From an uncultured Erysipelotrichaceae bacterium (GTDB lineage: Bacteria > Bacillota_I > Bacilli_A > Erysipelotrichales > Erysipelotrichaceae), in contig CASEPS010000028.1 of the NCBI GenBank assembly GCA_949289855.1, positions 1-45,821 of the forward strand: 45,821 bases of DNA, written 5' to 3'. A program made the position numbers and the translations under genes. This document shows, piece by piece, positions 20,689 to 33,116 of this stretch (the stretch's first letter is position 1; each line of letters opens with the position of its first letter). The notes beneath the pieces were generated by a model. The model did no database searches. It was not told the origin of the DNA and saw only the letters and a program-made list of their open reading frames with translations.

Positions 20689-20700
20689 GAAGGAACGGTG

Positions 20701-22065
20701 ATGAAAATGAAACAGAAACGAAATTACTGGGATGTTCTGATCGATGATCCATCTATCAGCCAGAATGACCTGTTTATGCGCATACGTGATCAATATGCGG
20801 CATTGATGCGCCATTTGTATGATGATCCATCTGATATACCGGATTTCCGCATTTATTTCTCTTGTGAACAGGTGAGTCCGGATGAAGGAATTGATCAGGG
20901 TGGCTATGAAATTGCGAAGGTTATGCGCAAGGGCAGTGAAGTTGAGAGGATGCATATCCGCGATGTGACAGAGATCGAAAACTTTGAGAATTCCTATACA
21001 TGGTACAGGGATGATGTATTCATTGTTTTTGATTTCAGGGAAATCGGTATATCGCCATTTACATTCATCACAGAGGCTTTCATGCAGGAAATTTTCAATA
21101 TCATCCTCACCCAGGGTGTGCGCAAGATGCGCATGTCCATGATGAGTGAACTTGTCATCTCCCAGGGCATTGTGGAATTCTTCTATGCCTTCTATCGGAT
21201 AGATGTCAACTTCCTGCAGAACCTTTCGGCTGTGACATATGAAAGCTCTTATGCGGACAGCCGTATCATCGTTTCAAGAACTGATGGAAAGGGGACGCAC
21301 CGCACAAAGAGAAGCGGTCTTAAGATTGCATTTACCGATCCTTTGGATTTCTCCATTGAAAATCTCAGACAGATCCGCAAACTGCTGGAACTTTCCAATG
21401 AAGACCTGGCAATTGTCATCGGCGAAAATGGAAAGATCAAAGGTCTTACGGCCGAGGCGGTATTCCCCAATGAATGTGAAATACGCATCCATGGACATCT
21501 TGCCATGACGATTTCCTTTGATGGCACAAAGATGATTTCCTATAACAATGGACATTACCATATCTATGTTCCACACACTGCTGATATCAACCTGCATAAA
21601 TTCCTGACCCGCATTGATCCTTCAATCAACGAAGACCAGGCAGCATTGCTGGCAGATGTAATAGCCAAAGCTTCCGAACAGCCCCATGGTACGATTCTCA
21701 TCATCGGCAGTAAGGAAGATGTTGACTCAGAAACAGAAAGGATCTGTTCTGCCAAACATGCGATTGGGATTCATACAGTAGATCTTTCCAAGGATCCACT
21801 GCTTGTGCCATCGATTACTTCTATCGATGGAGCGATCCTGATGGATACGGACTGCCATTGCAGCTGTATTGGGGCAATTCTCGATGGAGACTTTGTGACA
21901 CGAGGCAATATGGCACGTGGTTCCCGTTACAATTCCACATGTAATTACATCAAGAGACGGAAGGACTTTGGACAAAACTTTACCGGTATTGTCATTTCAG
22001 AAGATGGAACGGTTGATGCGGTGAATGATGAAAAGGTCTATCGTATTAACATCCCCCATGACTAA
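20701..22065 (+). CDS. DisA-N/DAC-domain protein with altered active-site motif
   Basis: A 454-residue cytosolic protein whose last 150 residues resemble the DisA_N diadenylate cyclase fold, which makes c-di-AMP in active members. The DGA motif is present (SIDGAILMDTD). The usual RHR/RHT motif is replaced by RYN in RGSRYNST, followed by a normal-looking TGIVISEDGTVDAV strand. The first 300 residues match nothing I know; they are soluble alpha/beta sequence without membrane helices, unlike CdaA, and no DisA helix-hairpin-helix DNA-binding domain is seen. It may be a weak cyclase, a nucleotide sensor or a diverged enzyme. ATG 20701 is preferred over GTG 20698 because AGAAGGA is then six bases away. 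It is probably co-transcribed with the YihY-type gene. Confidence 0.72.
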   Translation: MKMKQKRNYWDVLIDDPSISQNDLFMRIRDQYAALMRHLYDDPSDIPDFRIYFSCEQVSPDEGIDQGGYEIAKVMRKGSEVERMHIRDVTEIENFENSYTWYRDDVFIVFDFREIGISPFTFITEAFMQEIFNIILTQGVRKMRMSMMSELVISQGIVEFFYAFYRIDVNFLQNLSAVTYESSYADSRIIVSRTDGKGTHRTKRSGLKIAFTDPLDFSIENLRQIRKLLELSNEDLAIVIGENGKIKGLTAEAVFPNECEIRIHGHLAMTISFDGTKMISYNNGHYHIYVPHTADINLHKFLTRIDPSINEDQAALLADVIAKASEQPHGTILIIGSKEDVDSETERICSAKHAIGIHTVDLSKDPLLVPSITSIDGAILMDTDCHCSCIGAILDGDFVTRGNMARGSRYNSTCNYIKRRKDFGQNFTGIVISEDGTVDAVNDEKVYRINIPHD

Positions 22066-23850: not shown

Positions 23851-23882
23851 TGATATAATAATCAACAGTAATGGAGGGTTTT

Positions 23883-24143
23883 ATGGAAAAACTGGAATTC
23901 AAATTTGATACACAGCTTCTCATCGATGGTGAAGACCTTGATGAAGATGAAGTACATGATTATATCCTTGAACATTTCAAGGGTGACTGCCTGCTTGCGG
24001 TAGGTGGTGATGGTGATCCGATCAAGATTCACTTTCATACAAATGAGCCATGGCTGATTCTCGAATATGGTCAGTCTATCGGTGACATCTATGATGTTGT
24101 TGTAGAGAACATGCAGAGACAGGAAGAAGGTCTCAAGGGATAA
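23883..24143 (+). CDS. Stand-alone FakA/YloV middle-domain-like protein
   Basis: An 86-residue protein resembling the part of FakA (YloV, the DhaL-type fatty acid kinase) that follows the kinase domain. The motif IKIHFHTNEPWLILEYGQSIG at about 47-67 parallels the FakA phrase 'KVHVHTNNPGKVLEYA...G', and VVVENMQRQ parallels its 'IDNMREQ'. The preceding GDCLLAVGGDGDP also fits. There is no DhaL kinase domain and no C-terminal region. Similar short proteins are known in databases as 'kinase to dihydroxyacetone kinase'. ATG 23883 is chosen over 23871 because GGAGGG lies just before it. TATAAT at 23854-23859 may be its -10. It could bind DegV proteins, two of which are in this window. Confidence 0.65.
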   Translation: MEKLEFKFDTQLLIDGEDLDEDEVHDYILEHFKGDCLLAVGGDGDPIKIHFHTNEPWLILEYGQSIGDIYDVVVENMQRQEEGLKG

Positions 24144-24189: not shown

Positions 24190-24218
24190 TTGCAATTCGT
24201 TTTACGGTTGTTTATACT
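24190..24218 (+). promoter_or_regulatory. Promoter of the T-box leader
   Basis: -35 TTGCAA (24190-24195), 17-bp spacer, -10 TATACT (24213-24218). The start of transcription is expected near 24225. Confidence 0.8.
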
Positions 24219-24347
24219 ATACACATCAAAAGCAAAGAAGTGGAGTAGTACTCATGGATGGCTGTTTAGAGAGACTGCGTCTGGTGAAAGCAGGAGAGCA
24301 TAAGTGAGGAACGTGTCATGGAGCTGCATTCCCGAAGCTTGCGAGGG

Positions 24348-24467
24348 AATGATCGCAGAACCTGCGTTACGGGTCGAGTGTCCACATAAGAAAGATATGT
24401 GGGAAATAATGATCGCAGAACCTGCGTTACGGGTCGAGTGTCCACATAAGAAAGATATGTGGGAAAT
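24348..24467 (+). repeat. Exact 60-bp tandem duplication inside the T-box leader
   Basis: Positions 24348-24407 and 24408-24467 are identical 60-mers. Each carries two hairpins: CGCAG-AAC-CTGCG, and CCACATA / TATGTGG (the usual stem III before the antiterminator). The leader thus has two such modules in a row, leaving stem I and the antiterminator single. Confidence 0.95.
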
Positions 24468-24488
24468 AAGGTGGTACCGCGCATACAG

Positions 24489-24517
24489 CGTCCTTGTCTT
24501 GTGACAGGGACGTTTTT
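24489..24517 (+). terminator. T-box terminator hairpin
   Basis: A 10-bp stem CGTCCTTGTC / GACAGGGACG with one G-U pair, loop TTGT, then TTTTT. Its 5' arm would be used in the alternative antiterminator with the T-box sequence. Confidence 0.85.
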
Positions 24518-24541: not shown

Positions 24542-26065
24542 ATGAAGAAATGTAAAACATGGCTGATGACGGCAGTGATGGCATTTGCAGTGATGATTGC
24601 TTCGGCAGTTCCTGCATTTGCGGAAGATGACAAGAGTCTTCTTGATGAGATCAAAGAGCGTGGCGTTCTGGTAGTTGGTACATCACCAGACTTCCCGCCA
24701 AGTGAATTCATCGATCCATCCAAAACCGGACAGGACCAGTACGTTGGCAGTGATATGGAACTGGCAAGATACATTGCGGAAAAACTCGGGGTGGAGTTAC
24801 AGATTGAGGCGAGCAGTTTCGATACGGTACTTGCCAATATTTCTACCGGCCAGATTGATCTTGCGATTACCGGACTTGCCTATACGCCAGCCCGGGCAGA
24901 GTCCATGGAGATGTCCATTGGTTACAATGTGGATGAAGAGTCAGAATCCAGTGGGCATGGCATATTGATCCGTGCCGAGGATGCGGAAACATATACATCC
25001 TTTGAAGCACTGGATGGAGCAAAGATTGCAGCCCAGACGGGTTCTCTGCAGGAAATGTTCACAAAGGACCAGCTGCCAAATTGTGAAATCCAGAGTATTT
25101 CCTCCATCGATGATGGGGTGGCATTATTGAAGAATGGTACAGTGGATGGTGTAGCTTCTGCCTGGACAACCGGAAACCAGTATGTGACAAACAATCCGGA
25201 ACTTGCCATGATGGAACAGAAGTTTGACAACACGGAAGAATATGCCGGCACAAGAGTTGGTGCGCCAAAGGGTGAGACAGAACTGATTGAAGCTGTCAAT
25301 GATATTCTTGAAGAAGTCAATGAACTCGGACTGTATGAACAGTGGTCTGATGAGGCAATTGAGCTCAACAATTCCCTGACCTCTGTTGATTCCAGCGGTG
25401 GTTTCTTCTCTACCTGTGTACAGATTGTACAGGAGTACTGGGGACTGTTGTTACAGGGGTTGTTAATTACCCTTGGTCTTGCGGCGGTGACGGTATTGTT
25501 TGGTACACTGATCGGTTCAGTTGTTGCCTTCCTCTATCTTTTGAAAAATCCGATTACACACTTCATCTGCACAGCCTATGTTGAAGTGCTGAGAGGTACA
25601 CCGTTGCTGTTACAGCTCTGGCTGTTTATCACCGTGTTCTCTACGCTGACCGGTGGTGAAATGCCAATGCTTGTCAGTGTCATCATCGCCCTGATTATCA
25701 ATTCCAGTGCGTATGTAGCAGAAATTATCCGTTCTGGTTTACAGTCTGTGGACAAAGGACAGACAGAGGCAGCCAAGTCTCTTGGCATGAGCAACAAGAA
25801 TACAATGCTCAAGATCATCATGCCACAGGCTGTCAAGAATATTCTTCCTGCCCTTGGTAATGAATTCATTTCCATGGTCAAGGAAACATCTCTTGCGTCC
25901 ACGTTCTTCATCGGTGAACTGATGACGGTCAACAGTGTGATCAAATCCGCCATTTACAAGTCTATTGAACCACTTGTGATTGTCGGTATCATCTACTTCA
26001 TCGTAACATTCACATTATCCAAGTTTGTTAAATACATTGAAAGGAGGATGAGTGTCAGTGACTAA
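24542..26065 (+). CDS. Polar amino acid ABC importer: binding protein-permease fusion
   Basis: A 507-residue fusion of the GlnH and GlnP types. A signal peptide (1-27, ending PAFA) is followed by a family 3 solute-binding domain (about 33-265: [42 protein letters not shown]). A permease then runs from about 290 to 507 with the EAA loop ([27 protein letters not shown]). Such fusions tether the receptor to its own channel, as in lactococcal GlnP. ATG 24542 follows AAGGGAG; the longer frame from 24494 starts inside the terminator. The T-box suggests the substrate may be the amino acid of the specifier (arginine, if CGT is right). ATPase and peptidase genes follow. Confidence 0.9.
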
Positions 26066-26795
26066 CGAAGCATTGATTCAGGTAGTTGATCTCTATAAGA
26101 AGTTTGGTGACCTGGAAGTATTGAAAGGCGTCAGCGAAGAGATTCATAAAGGAGAGGTAGTTTCTATCATCGGTCCTTCCGGTAGTGGCAAGTCCACATT
26201 CCTGAGATGTCTCAATTTGCTGGAGAAACCGGATTCCGGCAGCGTTATCTTTGAGGGGGTGGACATTACCAAAAAGAATATCGATATTGACAAGCATCGT
26301 CAGAAGATGGGCATGATCTTCCAGCACTTCAATGTATTTCCACATCTGACCGTATTGGAAAATATCACCCTTGCCCCAACGCTTGAGCTTGGTATTTCCA
26401 AAAAGGAAGCAGAAGAAAAGGCATGTGAACTGCTCGACATGGTTGGACTTCTCGACAAGAAGGATGAATATCCACGGAAACTTTCCGGTGGTCAGAAGCA
26501 GCGTCTTGCGATTGTAAGAGCTCTTGCTATGAACCCGGATGTACTGTTGATGGATGAACCGACATCTGCCCTTGATCCGGAAATGGTCAAGGATGTATTG
26601 GAAGTCATCAGAAATCTTGCCAAACAGGGTATGACAATTGTTATCGTTACCCATGAAATGGCATTTGCCCGGGAAATCAGTAACCGCGTCCTGTTCATGG
26701 ATGGTGGTATTATTCAGGAAGAAGGTACACCACAGGAAGTCTTTGGCAATCCAAAGAATCCACGTACGATCAGCTTCCTGAGCAAGGTTCTATAA
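26052..26795 (+). CDS. Polar amino acid ABC importer ATPase (GlnQ/ArtP type)
   Basis: A 247-residue ATPase of the polar amino acid uptake family. Walker [10 protein letters not shown] lies at about 39-47, signature LSGGQKQR near 144-151, Walker [17 protein letters not shown] near 166-181, and H-loop VTHEM. It completes the importer with the upstream fusion protein, whose end it overlaps by 14 bases. No ATG fits. GTG 26052 or GTG 26058 is the start, with AAGGAGGA 4 or 10 bases upstream, so the exact N terminus is uncertain. Confidence 0.92.
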
Positions 26796-26809: not shown

Positions 26810-28477
26810 ATGAAGACAACATTTACGTATGATCATTATTATGACTATGAAGAATTGACAAATTGTCTCAAACAGCTTTGTGAAACATATCCGGATCTGA
26901 TGAAGATGGAAAGCATCTGTGAAAGCGAAGAAGGCAAACAGGTATGGGCAGTGACCATTGCCAAAGGTGATGACACAAAGAAACCGGCCTTCTATATGGA
27001 TGGCAATCACCATGCCGGAGAAGTGACAGGTTCCATGGAATGCATGCACTTCATCGATACCATTGTTACAAACAATGCCGAAGCGTCTGTTGCAAAGCTT
27101 CTTGCCAAAAATACTATCTATGTCATCCCAAAGATTTCTCCAGATGGTTCAGATACGTACCTGCATACATCTGAGAAGCTGCGTTCTGTCAACCGGATGT
27201 ATCCGCTCAAAAATCTGGATGACGGCCTGCATGCGGCTGATATAGATCACAATGGCATCCAGGCAATGATGCGTGTCAAAACACCATATGGTGCATGGAA
27301 GAAGAAGCCTGGCAGTGATTTCCTGATGACAAAGCGTATGCCGGATGATACAGAAGGTGAATTCTATAATATCTATCCGGAAGGTGTTGTACAGAACTAT
27401 GATGGACTGCATATCACCATCGGTACAGAGAAGTGGGGTCTTGATTTCAACAGAAACTATCCATTTGGCTGGTTTACAGAATACCGTCAGCCAGGTGCTG
27501 GCAAATATCCGCTTTCCAATCCGGAAAACAAGGCGGTTGCGGACTTTGTCATCGCCCATCCTAATATTGTTACGGCATTGACAATGCATACAAGTGGTGG
27601 CGTGCTCTGCTATCCTCCGGGAACTATGCCAAGTGACAAGGCAGACCAGGAAGATATGCGTATGTATAAAGAAATCGGACTGATGGCAACAGAAGAAATG
27701 AAATATCCGGTTGTCAACATCTTCGATAATTTCCTGGCGGATAATGTCAACTACTCCAGTGGTGCTTTCGATGACTGGTGCTACCATACCCAGGGTATTC
27801 CAACCTATACGGTAGAGCTGTGGAATCTCAGTGAACGTGCCGGCTGTCCAAACCAGTGGCCTGTCAAGCGTGACAAGAGCGATGCTGAGAAGGAAGAGGA
27901 ATACGCAAAGGAAATGGCCTGGATTCAGCAAAACTGCCCGGACAAGATTCTGCCCTGGACTGCGGTTGAACATCCACAGCTTGGCGAAGTAGAAATTGGT
28001 GGTGTTGACTTCAAGTTTACTTTCCAGAATTGTCCGAACAACTTCCTTCTGCAGGAAATGGAAAAGACAACAGCATTTGCTTTACGCCATGCCAATGTCC
28101 TGCCTGAGCTGAAGATTGAAAAAGTAGAGACAGAAAAGCTTGGGGATGGTCTTTACCAGGTAAAGGCAGTTGTTGCCAACCGCGGTTATCTGCCTACCTA
28201 TGTATGCAATGAAGCAAAGCATGTACAGGTGGATAAGAAGCTGACGGTTTCCCTCACAGGAGCTGAAATTGTTTCTTCTTCCAAACCGGTTGAGTCACTG
28301 TCTGGTTTCTTCAATGTGAAGACAGGGTTCCGGTATTATGGTATTCAGACAGACAACTATGATCCATGTGTCAAGGCAATGACATGGGTTGTCAAAGCAG
28401 AAGAGGGAACAGATGTGACTGTATGCATGGAAAGCGAAAAGTGCGGTACGGTCAGCGAAACAGTAAAACTGAACTAA
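26810..28477 (+). CDS. M14 family zinc carboxypeptidase
   Basis: A 555-residue metallopeptidase of family M14. Zinc ligands are H68 and E71 (DGNHHAGE) and H260 (LTMHTSGG); the catalytic glutamate is E336 (YTVELWN). FNRNYPFGW near 220-228 is the substrate-binding Asn-Arg region. The last 120 residues are beta-rich and probably an accessory domain. No signal peptide is visible, so it should work in the cytosol. It starts 14 bases after the ATPase gene with AAGGAGAA before the ATG, so it shares the T-box and candidate CodY control. Its placement suggests that it releases C-terminal amino acids from imported peptides. Confidence 0.88.
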   Translation: MKTTFTYDHYYDYEELTNCLKQLCETYPDLMKMESICESEEGKQVWAVTIAKGDDTKKPAFYMDGNHHAGEVTGSMECMHFIDTIVTNNAEASVAKLLAKNTIYVIPKISPDGSDTYLHTSEKLRSVNRMYPLKNLDDGLHAADIDHNGIQAMMRVKTPYGAWKKKPGSDFLMTKRMPDDTEGEFYNIYPEGVVQNYDGLHITIGTEKWGLDFNRNYPFGWFTEYRQPGAGKYPLSNPENKAVADFVIAHPNIVTALTMHTSGGVLCYPPGTMPSDKADQEDMRMYKEIGLMATEEMKYPVVNIFDNFLADNVNYSSGAFDDWCYHTQGIPTYTVELWNLSERAGCPNQWPVKRDKSDAEKEEEYAKEMAWIQQNCPDKILPWTAVEHPQLGEVEIGGVDFKFTFQNCPNNFLLQEMEKTTAFALRHANVLPELKIEKVETEKLGDGLYQVKAVVANRGYLPTYVCNEAKHVQVDKKLTVSLTGAEIVSSSKPVESLSGFFNVKTGFRYYGIQTDNYDPCVKAMTWVVKAEEGTDVTVCMESEKCGTVSETVKLN

Positions 28478-32546: not shown

Positions 32547-33116
32547 ATGCCAGCAAAGAAAACTGCAGCAGCTGCCGAAACTGAAACAAAAGAAACGGTA
32601 AAGAAGACTGCTGCCAAGAAGACAACTGCAACAAAGAAAACTGCAGCTGCAAAGAAGACTACAGCAGCAAGTGCAACAGATACAGAAACAAAGACAACTG
32701 CAAAGAAGGCTGCTGCCAAAAAGACTACTGCAGCGAAGAAGACAACTGCAACAAAGAAGACAACAGCGAAGAAGACAACAACAAAGAAGGCTGTCAAGGC
32801 TGAAGAGCCAAGTGCTGTTGTAAACAAGAAGTCTGTTCAGGATTATATCGACATTATCAACTGGAAGAAGGGTGAAGCCAATGGTATGGACTGGCTCTAT
32901 ATCGAAGTCAAGGCTGATGATCTTCTGACTGAAGTTGAAGCAGGTGTTGATAACCTTTCTACAGTATGCGAAGCTATTCAGAGCTGCATGCTTGAAGGTG
33001 ATACATTTGTTGTGGACTCTGCTGCTGATGGCAAGGTTGATCCAGCACTCACAGTGCGTTACTACTGCGATAACCTGAGCCCAGAACGCAAAAAGTATTC
33101 CGAAGTCAATCACTGA
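32547..33116 (+). CDS. Histone H1-like Lys/Ala/Thr-rich protein with C-terminal globular domain
   Basis: A 189-residue protein in two parts. Residues 1-88 are an imperfect repeat of A-K-K-T-T/A units with little else, strongly basic and disordered, like the tail of histone H1 or bacterial H1-like proteins that coat DNA. Residues about 95-189 form an acidic, apparently globular domain (SVQDYIDIINWKKGEANGMD, VDNLSTVCEAIQSCMLEGD, ALTVRYYCDNLS). I do not recognise this second domain. ATG 32547 rather than 32541 is chosen because AGGGAGG is then seven bases away. DNA or RNA binding is inferred from composition. The repeats may vary in length between strains. Confidence 0.7.
   Translation: MPAKKTAAAAETETKETVKKTAAKKTTATKKTAAAKKTTAASATDTETKTTAKKAAAKKTTAAKKTTATKKTTAKKTTTKKAVKAEEPSAVVNKKSVQDYIDIINWKKGEANGMDWLYIEVKADDLLTEVEAGVDNLSTVCEAIQSCMLEGDTFVVDSAADGKVDPALTVRYYCDNLSPERKKYSEVNH

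Follow-up and report, generated by a model that had tools for sequence, protein, structure and literature searches.

The question raised by this locus is what an exact 60-bp repeat inside a T-box leader contains, how it arose, and whether the leader can still work as a switch. The window, that is, the whole stretch of DNA that was analysed (45,821 nucleotides), makes up an entire contig of an uncultured Erysipelotrichaceae bacterium of the gut, whose draft genome comprises 2.33 Mb in 116 contigs and contains 17 T-boxes.

Anatomy of the leader

The original prediction was that the leader is a T-box carrying an exact internal duplication, and this is borne out because a single match to RF00230, at 24226-24498, spans the repeat. 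The match scores 101.1 bits against a cut-off of 93 and covers the whole model (1-219), with the extra copy forming one long insertion in the alignment. At 273 nt it is the longest of the genome's 17 T-box matches, the others being 189-243 nt long. The parts of the leader are as follows; the names of the stem I motifs are in part those that we take to be customary.

24190..24218, + strand: candidate promoter TTGCAA-17-TATACT (consensus scan, 9/12; weak, with 2 promoter-like sites versus 0.7 per shuffle)
24226..24326, + strand: stem I with the AGUA/GAA specifier loop and the AGAGAG motif (RF00230 alignment)
24312..24314, + strand: specifier codon CGU (Arg), directly 3' of GAA at 24309-24311 (RF00230 codon columns)
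24327..24351, + strand: stem II, CAUUCCC/GGGAAUG (RF00230 alignment; pair probability 0.98-0.99)
24350..24409, + strand: copy 1 of the repeated unit (exact repeat)
24354-24356/24364-24366, + strand: copy 1 stem IIA, with the F-box CGUUA at 24365-24369 and stem IIB at 24360-24363/24371-24374
24376-24380, + strand: copy 1 GAGUG, followed by stem III at 24381-24388/24396-24403 and AA at 24404-24405
24410..24469, + strand: copy 2 of the repeated unit, with its elements as in copy 1 at +60 (exact repeat)
24468..24495, + strand: antiterminator, single (RF00230 alignment and sequence), with helix A1 at 24468-24471/24492-24495 and helix A2 at 24479-24482/24488-24491, the base of A2 being a G-U pair
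24472..24478, + strand: T-box bulge UGGUACC, single (RF00230 alignment and sequence)
24487..24514, + strand: intrinsic terminator, a 12-bp stem followed by a T run (-18.9 kcal/mol; pair probability 0.93)

The two side-by-side 60-mers that had been reported, at 24348-24407 and 24408-24467, are indeed 100% identical, and Tandem Repeats Finder gives 24348-24469 with period 60 and 100% matches, so that the identity runs over 122 bp. The slack of 2 bp makes the phase 24350-24409/24410-24469 equally valid, and the junction of the repeat shows a 2-bp (AA) microhomology. A perfect repeat of 60-mers cannot be put down to chance, and it is the sole perfect array among the nine Tandem Repeats Finder rows of the window. 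Both hairpins that had been described, CGCAG/CTGCG and CCACATA/TATGTGG, were found in each copy. The remainder of the T-box had been said to be single, and we found stem I, stem II, the T-box bulge and the terminator once each. Since specifier, bulge and terminator each occur once, the window does not hold a full tandem T-box; it holds a partially tandem one, in which stem IIA/B and stem III are repeated within one switch. Helices A1 and A2 of the antiterminator compete with the terminator, 24488-24495 being common to both.

That the real genome has one copy and the second is an assembly artefact could be suspected in a draft of so many contigs, but no other perfect tandem array is present in the window. 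Moreover, assemblers typically collapse repeats and seldom invent copies, and the junction requires reads that contain it. We therefore regard an artefact as improbable.

Contents of the repeated unit

The 60-bp unit had been labelled a linker, and this label is wrong. In the phase 24350-24409 the unit begins at the last bases of the 3' strand of stem II, ends where helix A1 starts, and consists of IIA (CGC/GCG), the F-box CGUUA, IIB (ACCU/GGGU), GAGUG, stem III (UCCACAUA/UAUGUGGG) and AA; in other words, it is the stem IIA/B pseudoknot together with stem III and its flanking purines. In the relevant passages of two papers (PMC7583486, PMC10482949) the IIA/B pseudoknot is described as a hub stacked on stem II, whose deletion lowered tRNA binding by a factor of about 1,200, and the discriminator is said to include stem III and the 5'-RRRxG...AA-3' purines. 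The same passages of the former (PMC7583486) describe IIA/B, and stem III with its purines, as required for tRNA binding and aminoacylation sensing.

Conservation of these elements was examined in the subfamily of leaders with a CGU specifier, in which 43 units, aligned as rows anchored on the F-box, reduce to 39 distinct ones including the window's own. In IIB, 126 of the 156 cells are standard pairs, compared with a mean of 91.6 and a maximum of 106 in 2000 row shuffles, which ignore relatedness; none of the 2000 reached 126. When the IIB strands were slid by -1, +1 and +2, the standard pairs numbered 92, 64 and 49, respectively. The 30 failing cells lie mostly in the innermost and outermost pair. 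The stem III hairpin is kept across the same 39 units despite sequence variation, and most of them, including the window's, have an RRRxG-like string and AA at its flanks. A MAFFT alignment of 37 of the 43 units, from which duplicates, near-duplicates and two badly cut rows had been omitted by hand, placed the IIA strand wrongly, and these counts do not draw on it.

Amino-acid specificity

The specifier loop of the window reads GAA-CGU-G, where the customary spacer of one base is missing. Leaders with GAACGUGUC placed 30-60 nt 5' of an F-box and a T-box were found in 48 of the 294 genomes of the order; the window's own leader cannot match this pattern because of its doubled unit. Downstream of 36 such leaders there are 17 argG-like genes and 18 parts of amino-acid ABC transporters, with no gene in reach in one case. 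These 36 rows stand for 35 loci, L174 and L175 showing one sequence, and most of the gene names were assigned by sequence recognition, two argG fragments and one permease fragment having been checked. The loop GAACGUGU can also be framed as GUG, UGU or ACG, and a UGGU bulge suggested a tRNA with A73; however, specificity for Val, Cys or Thr was rejected since the same loop is found before argG and the covariance-model columns put CGU at the codon. Thus, as read from the alignment columns and the genes behind such leaders, the specifier of the window's T-box is CGU, for arginine.

All four arginine tRNAs seen, in a scan of 30 of 44 tRNA loci and the window, carry G73, so that acceptor contact with the UGGU of the window's bulge would include a G-U wobble. 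Among the 17 argG leaders UGGU occurs in 10 and UGGC in 7, and the TBDB paper reports G-U wobbles between bulge and discriminator base in the case of Trp and permits them. It can be said of the CGU-type arginine T-boxes of this order in general that the codon directly follows GAA with no one-base spacer and that UGGC or UGGU faces a G73 tRNA-Arg. In one genome of the survey (G089) one CGU T-box lies before a binding-protein gene and a second, some 1.2 kb away, before a permease gene (L161:1501 and 2694), and each transporter part seems to have its own switch.

The operon and its neighbours

The genes that follow the leader are these:

24542..26065, + strand: amino-acid ABC transporter protein in which the solute-binding protein and the permease are fused (Pfam SBP_bac_3, BPD_transp_1)
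26052..26795, + strand: ABC transporter ATPase (scores below the displayed equivalog cut-offs of NCBIfam models for polar-amino-acid ATPases)
26810..28477, + strand: M14 zinc carboxypeptidase (Pfam PF00246; syntenic 70% homologue in Merdibacter massiliensis)

The gene order is conserved in M. massiliensis, where the fused protein is 74%, the ATPase 88% and the carboxypeptidase 70% identical, and the carboxypeptidase is likely to belong to the transporter operon. The best NCBIfam matches of the transporter are to several polar-amino-acid transporters. Since all of them are below equivalog cut-offs, the substrate is read from the leader and is probably arginine.

Three other genes of the window may be mentioned. 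The one at 20698-22065 has a DACNH sensor domain; it matches the nucleotide-binding domain of DisA weakly and an NCBIfam anti-phage protein model below the cut-off. At 23871-24143 there is a stand-alone 90-aa protein that matches the middle domain only of FakA (fatty acid kinase). The start of an open reading frame at 32547-32820 is rich in Lys/Ala/Thr repeats of the AAKKTT type, which we take to resemble a histone H1-like tail.

Leaders of orthologous transporters and the origin of the doubling

A scan of GTDB contigs for the transporter gave 12 loci, and at E <= 1e-150 it is present in 10 of the 272 family genomes, the window's included. The five closest transporters are those of M. massiliensis (74%), an Erysipelotrichaceae MAG (72%), a MAG named Eubacterium (64%) and two Holdemanella (63%). 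In the window's own genus no other sampled member passes this threshold, so the locus may have been acquired horizontally or lost elsewhere, as far as this sample indicates. Same-genus transporters of at most 44% identity, which have single-unit T-boxes, were dropped as orthologues when closer ones were found.

All nine other orthologous leaders are T-boxes, four with GAA-N-CGC-A and five with CGU. Six are single ordinary T-boxes, whereas the three from Merdibacter are two complete, near-identical tandem T-boxes about 238 bp apart (L078:2510-2961, L079:797-1248, and L173 on the reverse strand; genus g21 was taken to be Merdibacter on account of the match between its leaders and L078 and L079). 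The two T-boxes of a pair are 96, 91 and 89% identical within species, compared with 81-89% between species. Because identity within species is equal to or above that between species, the pairs point to recent duplication or homogenisation, and in M. massiliensis the middle sections of both T-boxes are identical. On the transporter tree, which has seven rows, the window and Merdibacter split from the rest at 97/97, with the window on a long branch.

These leaders bear on the claim that the duplication is recent. The claim agrees with the lack of a doubled unit in all nine orthologous leaders from the 272 family genomes searched, but it does not follow from it, because a deletion within ancestral tandem T-boxes would yield an identical sequence and an identical junction. 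The leader could thus be a remnant of two complete tandem T-boxes, from which a deletion took the antiterminator and terminator of the first and stems I and II of the second, so that two middle sections were left. All three Merdibacter, which are nearest by transporter, carry such a pair at this place, and the identity of the two middle sections in M. massiliensis fits as well. On the other hand, the six remaining orthologous leaders are single, and the window's stem I-II and terminator have no consistent affinity to either the first or the second Merdibacter T-box, so that an attempt to date the event by such affinities gave no consistent signal. Since those six leaders are single, a duplication in the window's lineage would take the same number of events as a deletion, and on the transporter tree the two routes would be equal in cost. 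We consider a tandem remnant possible but doubtful. It concerns origin only and is compatible with either a working or a broken leader.

Surveys for further cases

Further doubled units were sought with a double-F-box pattern, which needs exact CGTTA and GGTGGNACCRCG and covers about one third of T-boxes, as its single-unit form fits 6 of the 17 T-boxes of the source genome. The double pattern itself fits 1 of these 17. It matched in 15 of 294 genomes of the order and in 13 of 392 phylum-level genomes, sets that partly overlap, giving 24 distinct loci. In similarity of the two units the window has a z of 21.3 and the others range from -1.5 to 5.4. The other 23 loci were rejected as chance matches (z <=5.4), and the top one, L179, is ordinary when read by eye. 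Hence, within the third of T-boxes that the pattern sees, no second doubled unit was found in the 294 order-level and 392 phylum-level genomes. Among viral contigs, a search with a 30-mer of the unit gave no exact match.

Predicted folding and the proposed working of the doubled leader

In predicted folding each stem III forms within its own copy (P 0.87-0.95), and helices across the copies have P <=0.007. Folding at the nucleotide level gives helix IIA a P of 0.87-0.94 in copy 1 and of 0.01-0.04 in copy 2, since the copy-2 strand pairs with other regions of the leader. However, IIA also fails to form in the single-unit form, so the folding model may be unable to capture the pseudoknot, for which thermodynamic folding of the whole leader is uninformative. 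Opening the terminator is calculated to cost 13.3 kcal/mol, with one unit as with two.

We propose, as a reading that is somewhat probable, that this is a functional transcriptional arginine T-box with doubled IIA/B and stem III, which would control the operon of an amino-acid (probably arginine) ABC transporter. The leader has an arginine specifier, a single bulge and terminator, and, in each copy, intact elements that covary among relatives; the boundaries of the repeat lie at the edges of stem II and helix A1, and a single RF00230 match spans it. If this is the case, then the pseudoknot of copy 1 would adjoin stem II and complete the decoding part that captures tRNA-Arg, while copy 2 would bring its purine string and stem III up to the antiterminator and supply the rest of the discriminator, which reads the 3' end of the tRNA. 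What lies between, stem III of copy 1 and the copy-2 pseudoknot, would then form an extra 60-nt spacer, looped out, as the simplest model has it, or stacked elsewhere. Binding of uncharged tRNA-Arg would still switch the leader on, with a changed efficiency, for there would be extra transcription time between decoding and synthesis of the terminator but also a longer tether. The prediction that the duplication alters how far the decoding part lies from the antiterminator is supported. The doubled state would have come from one event with 2-bp microhomology. Against this reading stand the low P of IIA in copy 2 and the G-U wobble that the UGGU bulge would make with G73; moreover, the doubled unit occurs in no second genome, and there is thus no sign that it is maintained by selection.

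As a rival reading, the leader would be broken or crippled: the added 60 nt would uncouple decoding from the discriminator, so that the transporter is more or less constitutively terminated, and one strain would carry the duplication as a neutral or mildly harmful transient. The leader is unique among the 10 genomes that bear the orthologue and the sole real case in two pattern surveys, its copies are undiverged, and in a related construct a longer flexible linker, placed between stems I and II, reduced tRNA binding, according to the relevant section of PMC10482949. But every known functional element is intact, the junctions of stem II with IIA/B and of stem III with the antiterminator are both kept, and natural stem II regions span about 10 to 200 nt, as given in part of PMC7583486. 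We consider a broken leader unlikely, a shade more so than a tandem remnant.

A bolder version of the working leader has two alternative middle modules, in which the pseudoknot of either copy could seat stem II while the unused one is looped. There would then be two productive topologies and a built-in delay, tunable by copy number, in a leader family that would repeatedly duplicate some of its parts; we hold this to be improbable, though slightly less so than an assembly artefact. Least probable of all is a copy-number-variable (phase-variable) leader, in which gain and loss of units tunes transporter expression. Perfect tandem repeats of about 60 bp are able to expand and contract, but in none of the nine other orthologous leaders, from a sample with one genome per species, does a single T-box contain two or three units.

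Comparison with known T-boxes and significance

Like arginine-specific class I transcriptional T-boxes (B. subtilis tyrS type), the window's leader has stem I with a specifier loop, stem II, IIA/B, stem III, the bulge, antiterminator and terminator, as well as an Arg specifier and an amino-acid transporter downstream; unlike them it has IIA/B and stem III twice. It shares with the Merdibacter tandem T-boxes the extra near-identical T-box material 5' of an orthologous transporter. However, in Merdibacter the whole switch is repeated with its own terminator, whereas the window repeats the middle only. Partially tandem T-boxes are already in print (PMC7583486), in passages that leave unstated which domains are doubled, and the same review, in its account of such features, counts tandem and inserted T-boxes among those of unknown mode of action. 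Judged by its sequence, the window's leader is a rare, cleanly bounded internal duplication and a variant of these printed partially tandem T-boxes.

As a spacing mutant made by nature, the leader keeps all its elements intact and has its middle section doubled at clean domain borders. It bears on how firmly the decoding half of a T-box has to be tied to the half that senses aminoacylation, and its relatives, with one unit or two whole switches on the same transporter, provide a ready-made comparison set.
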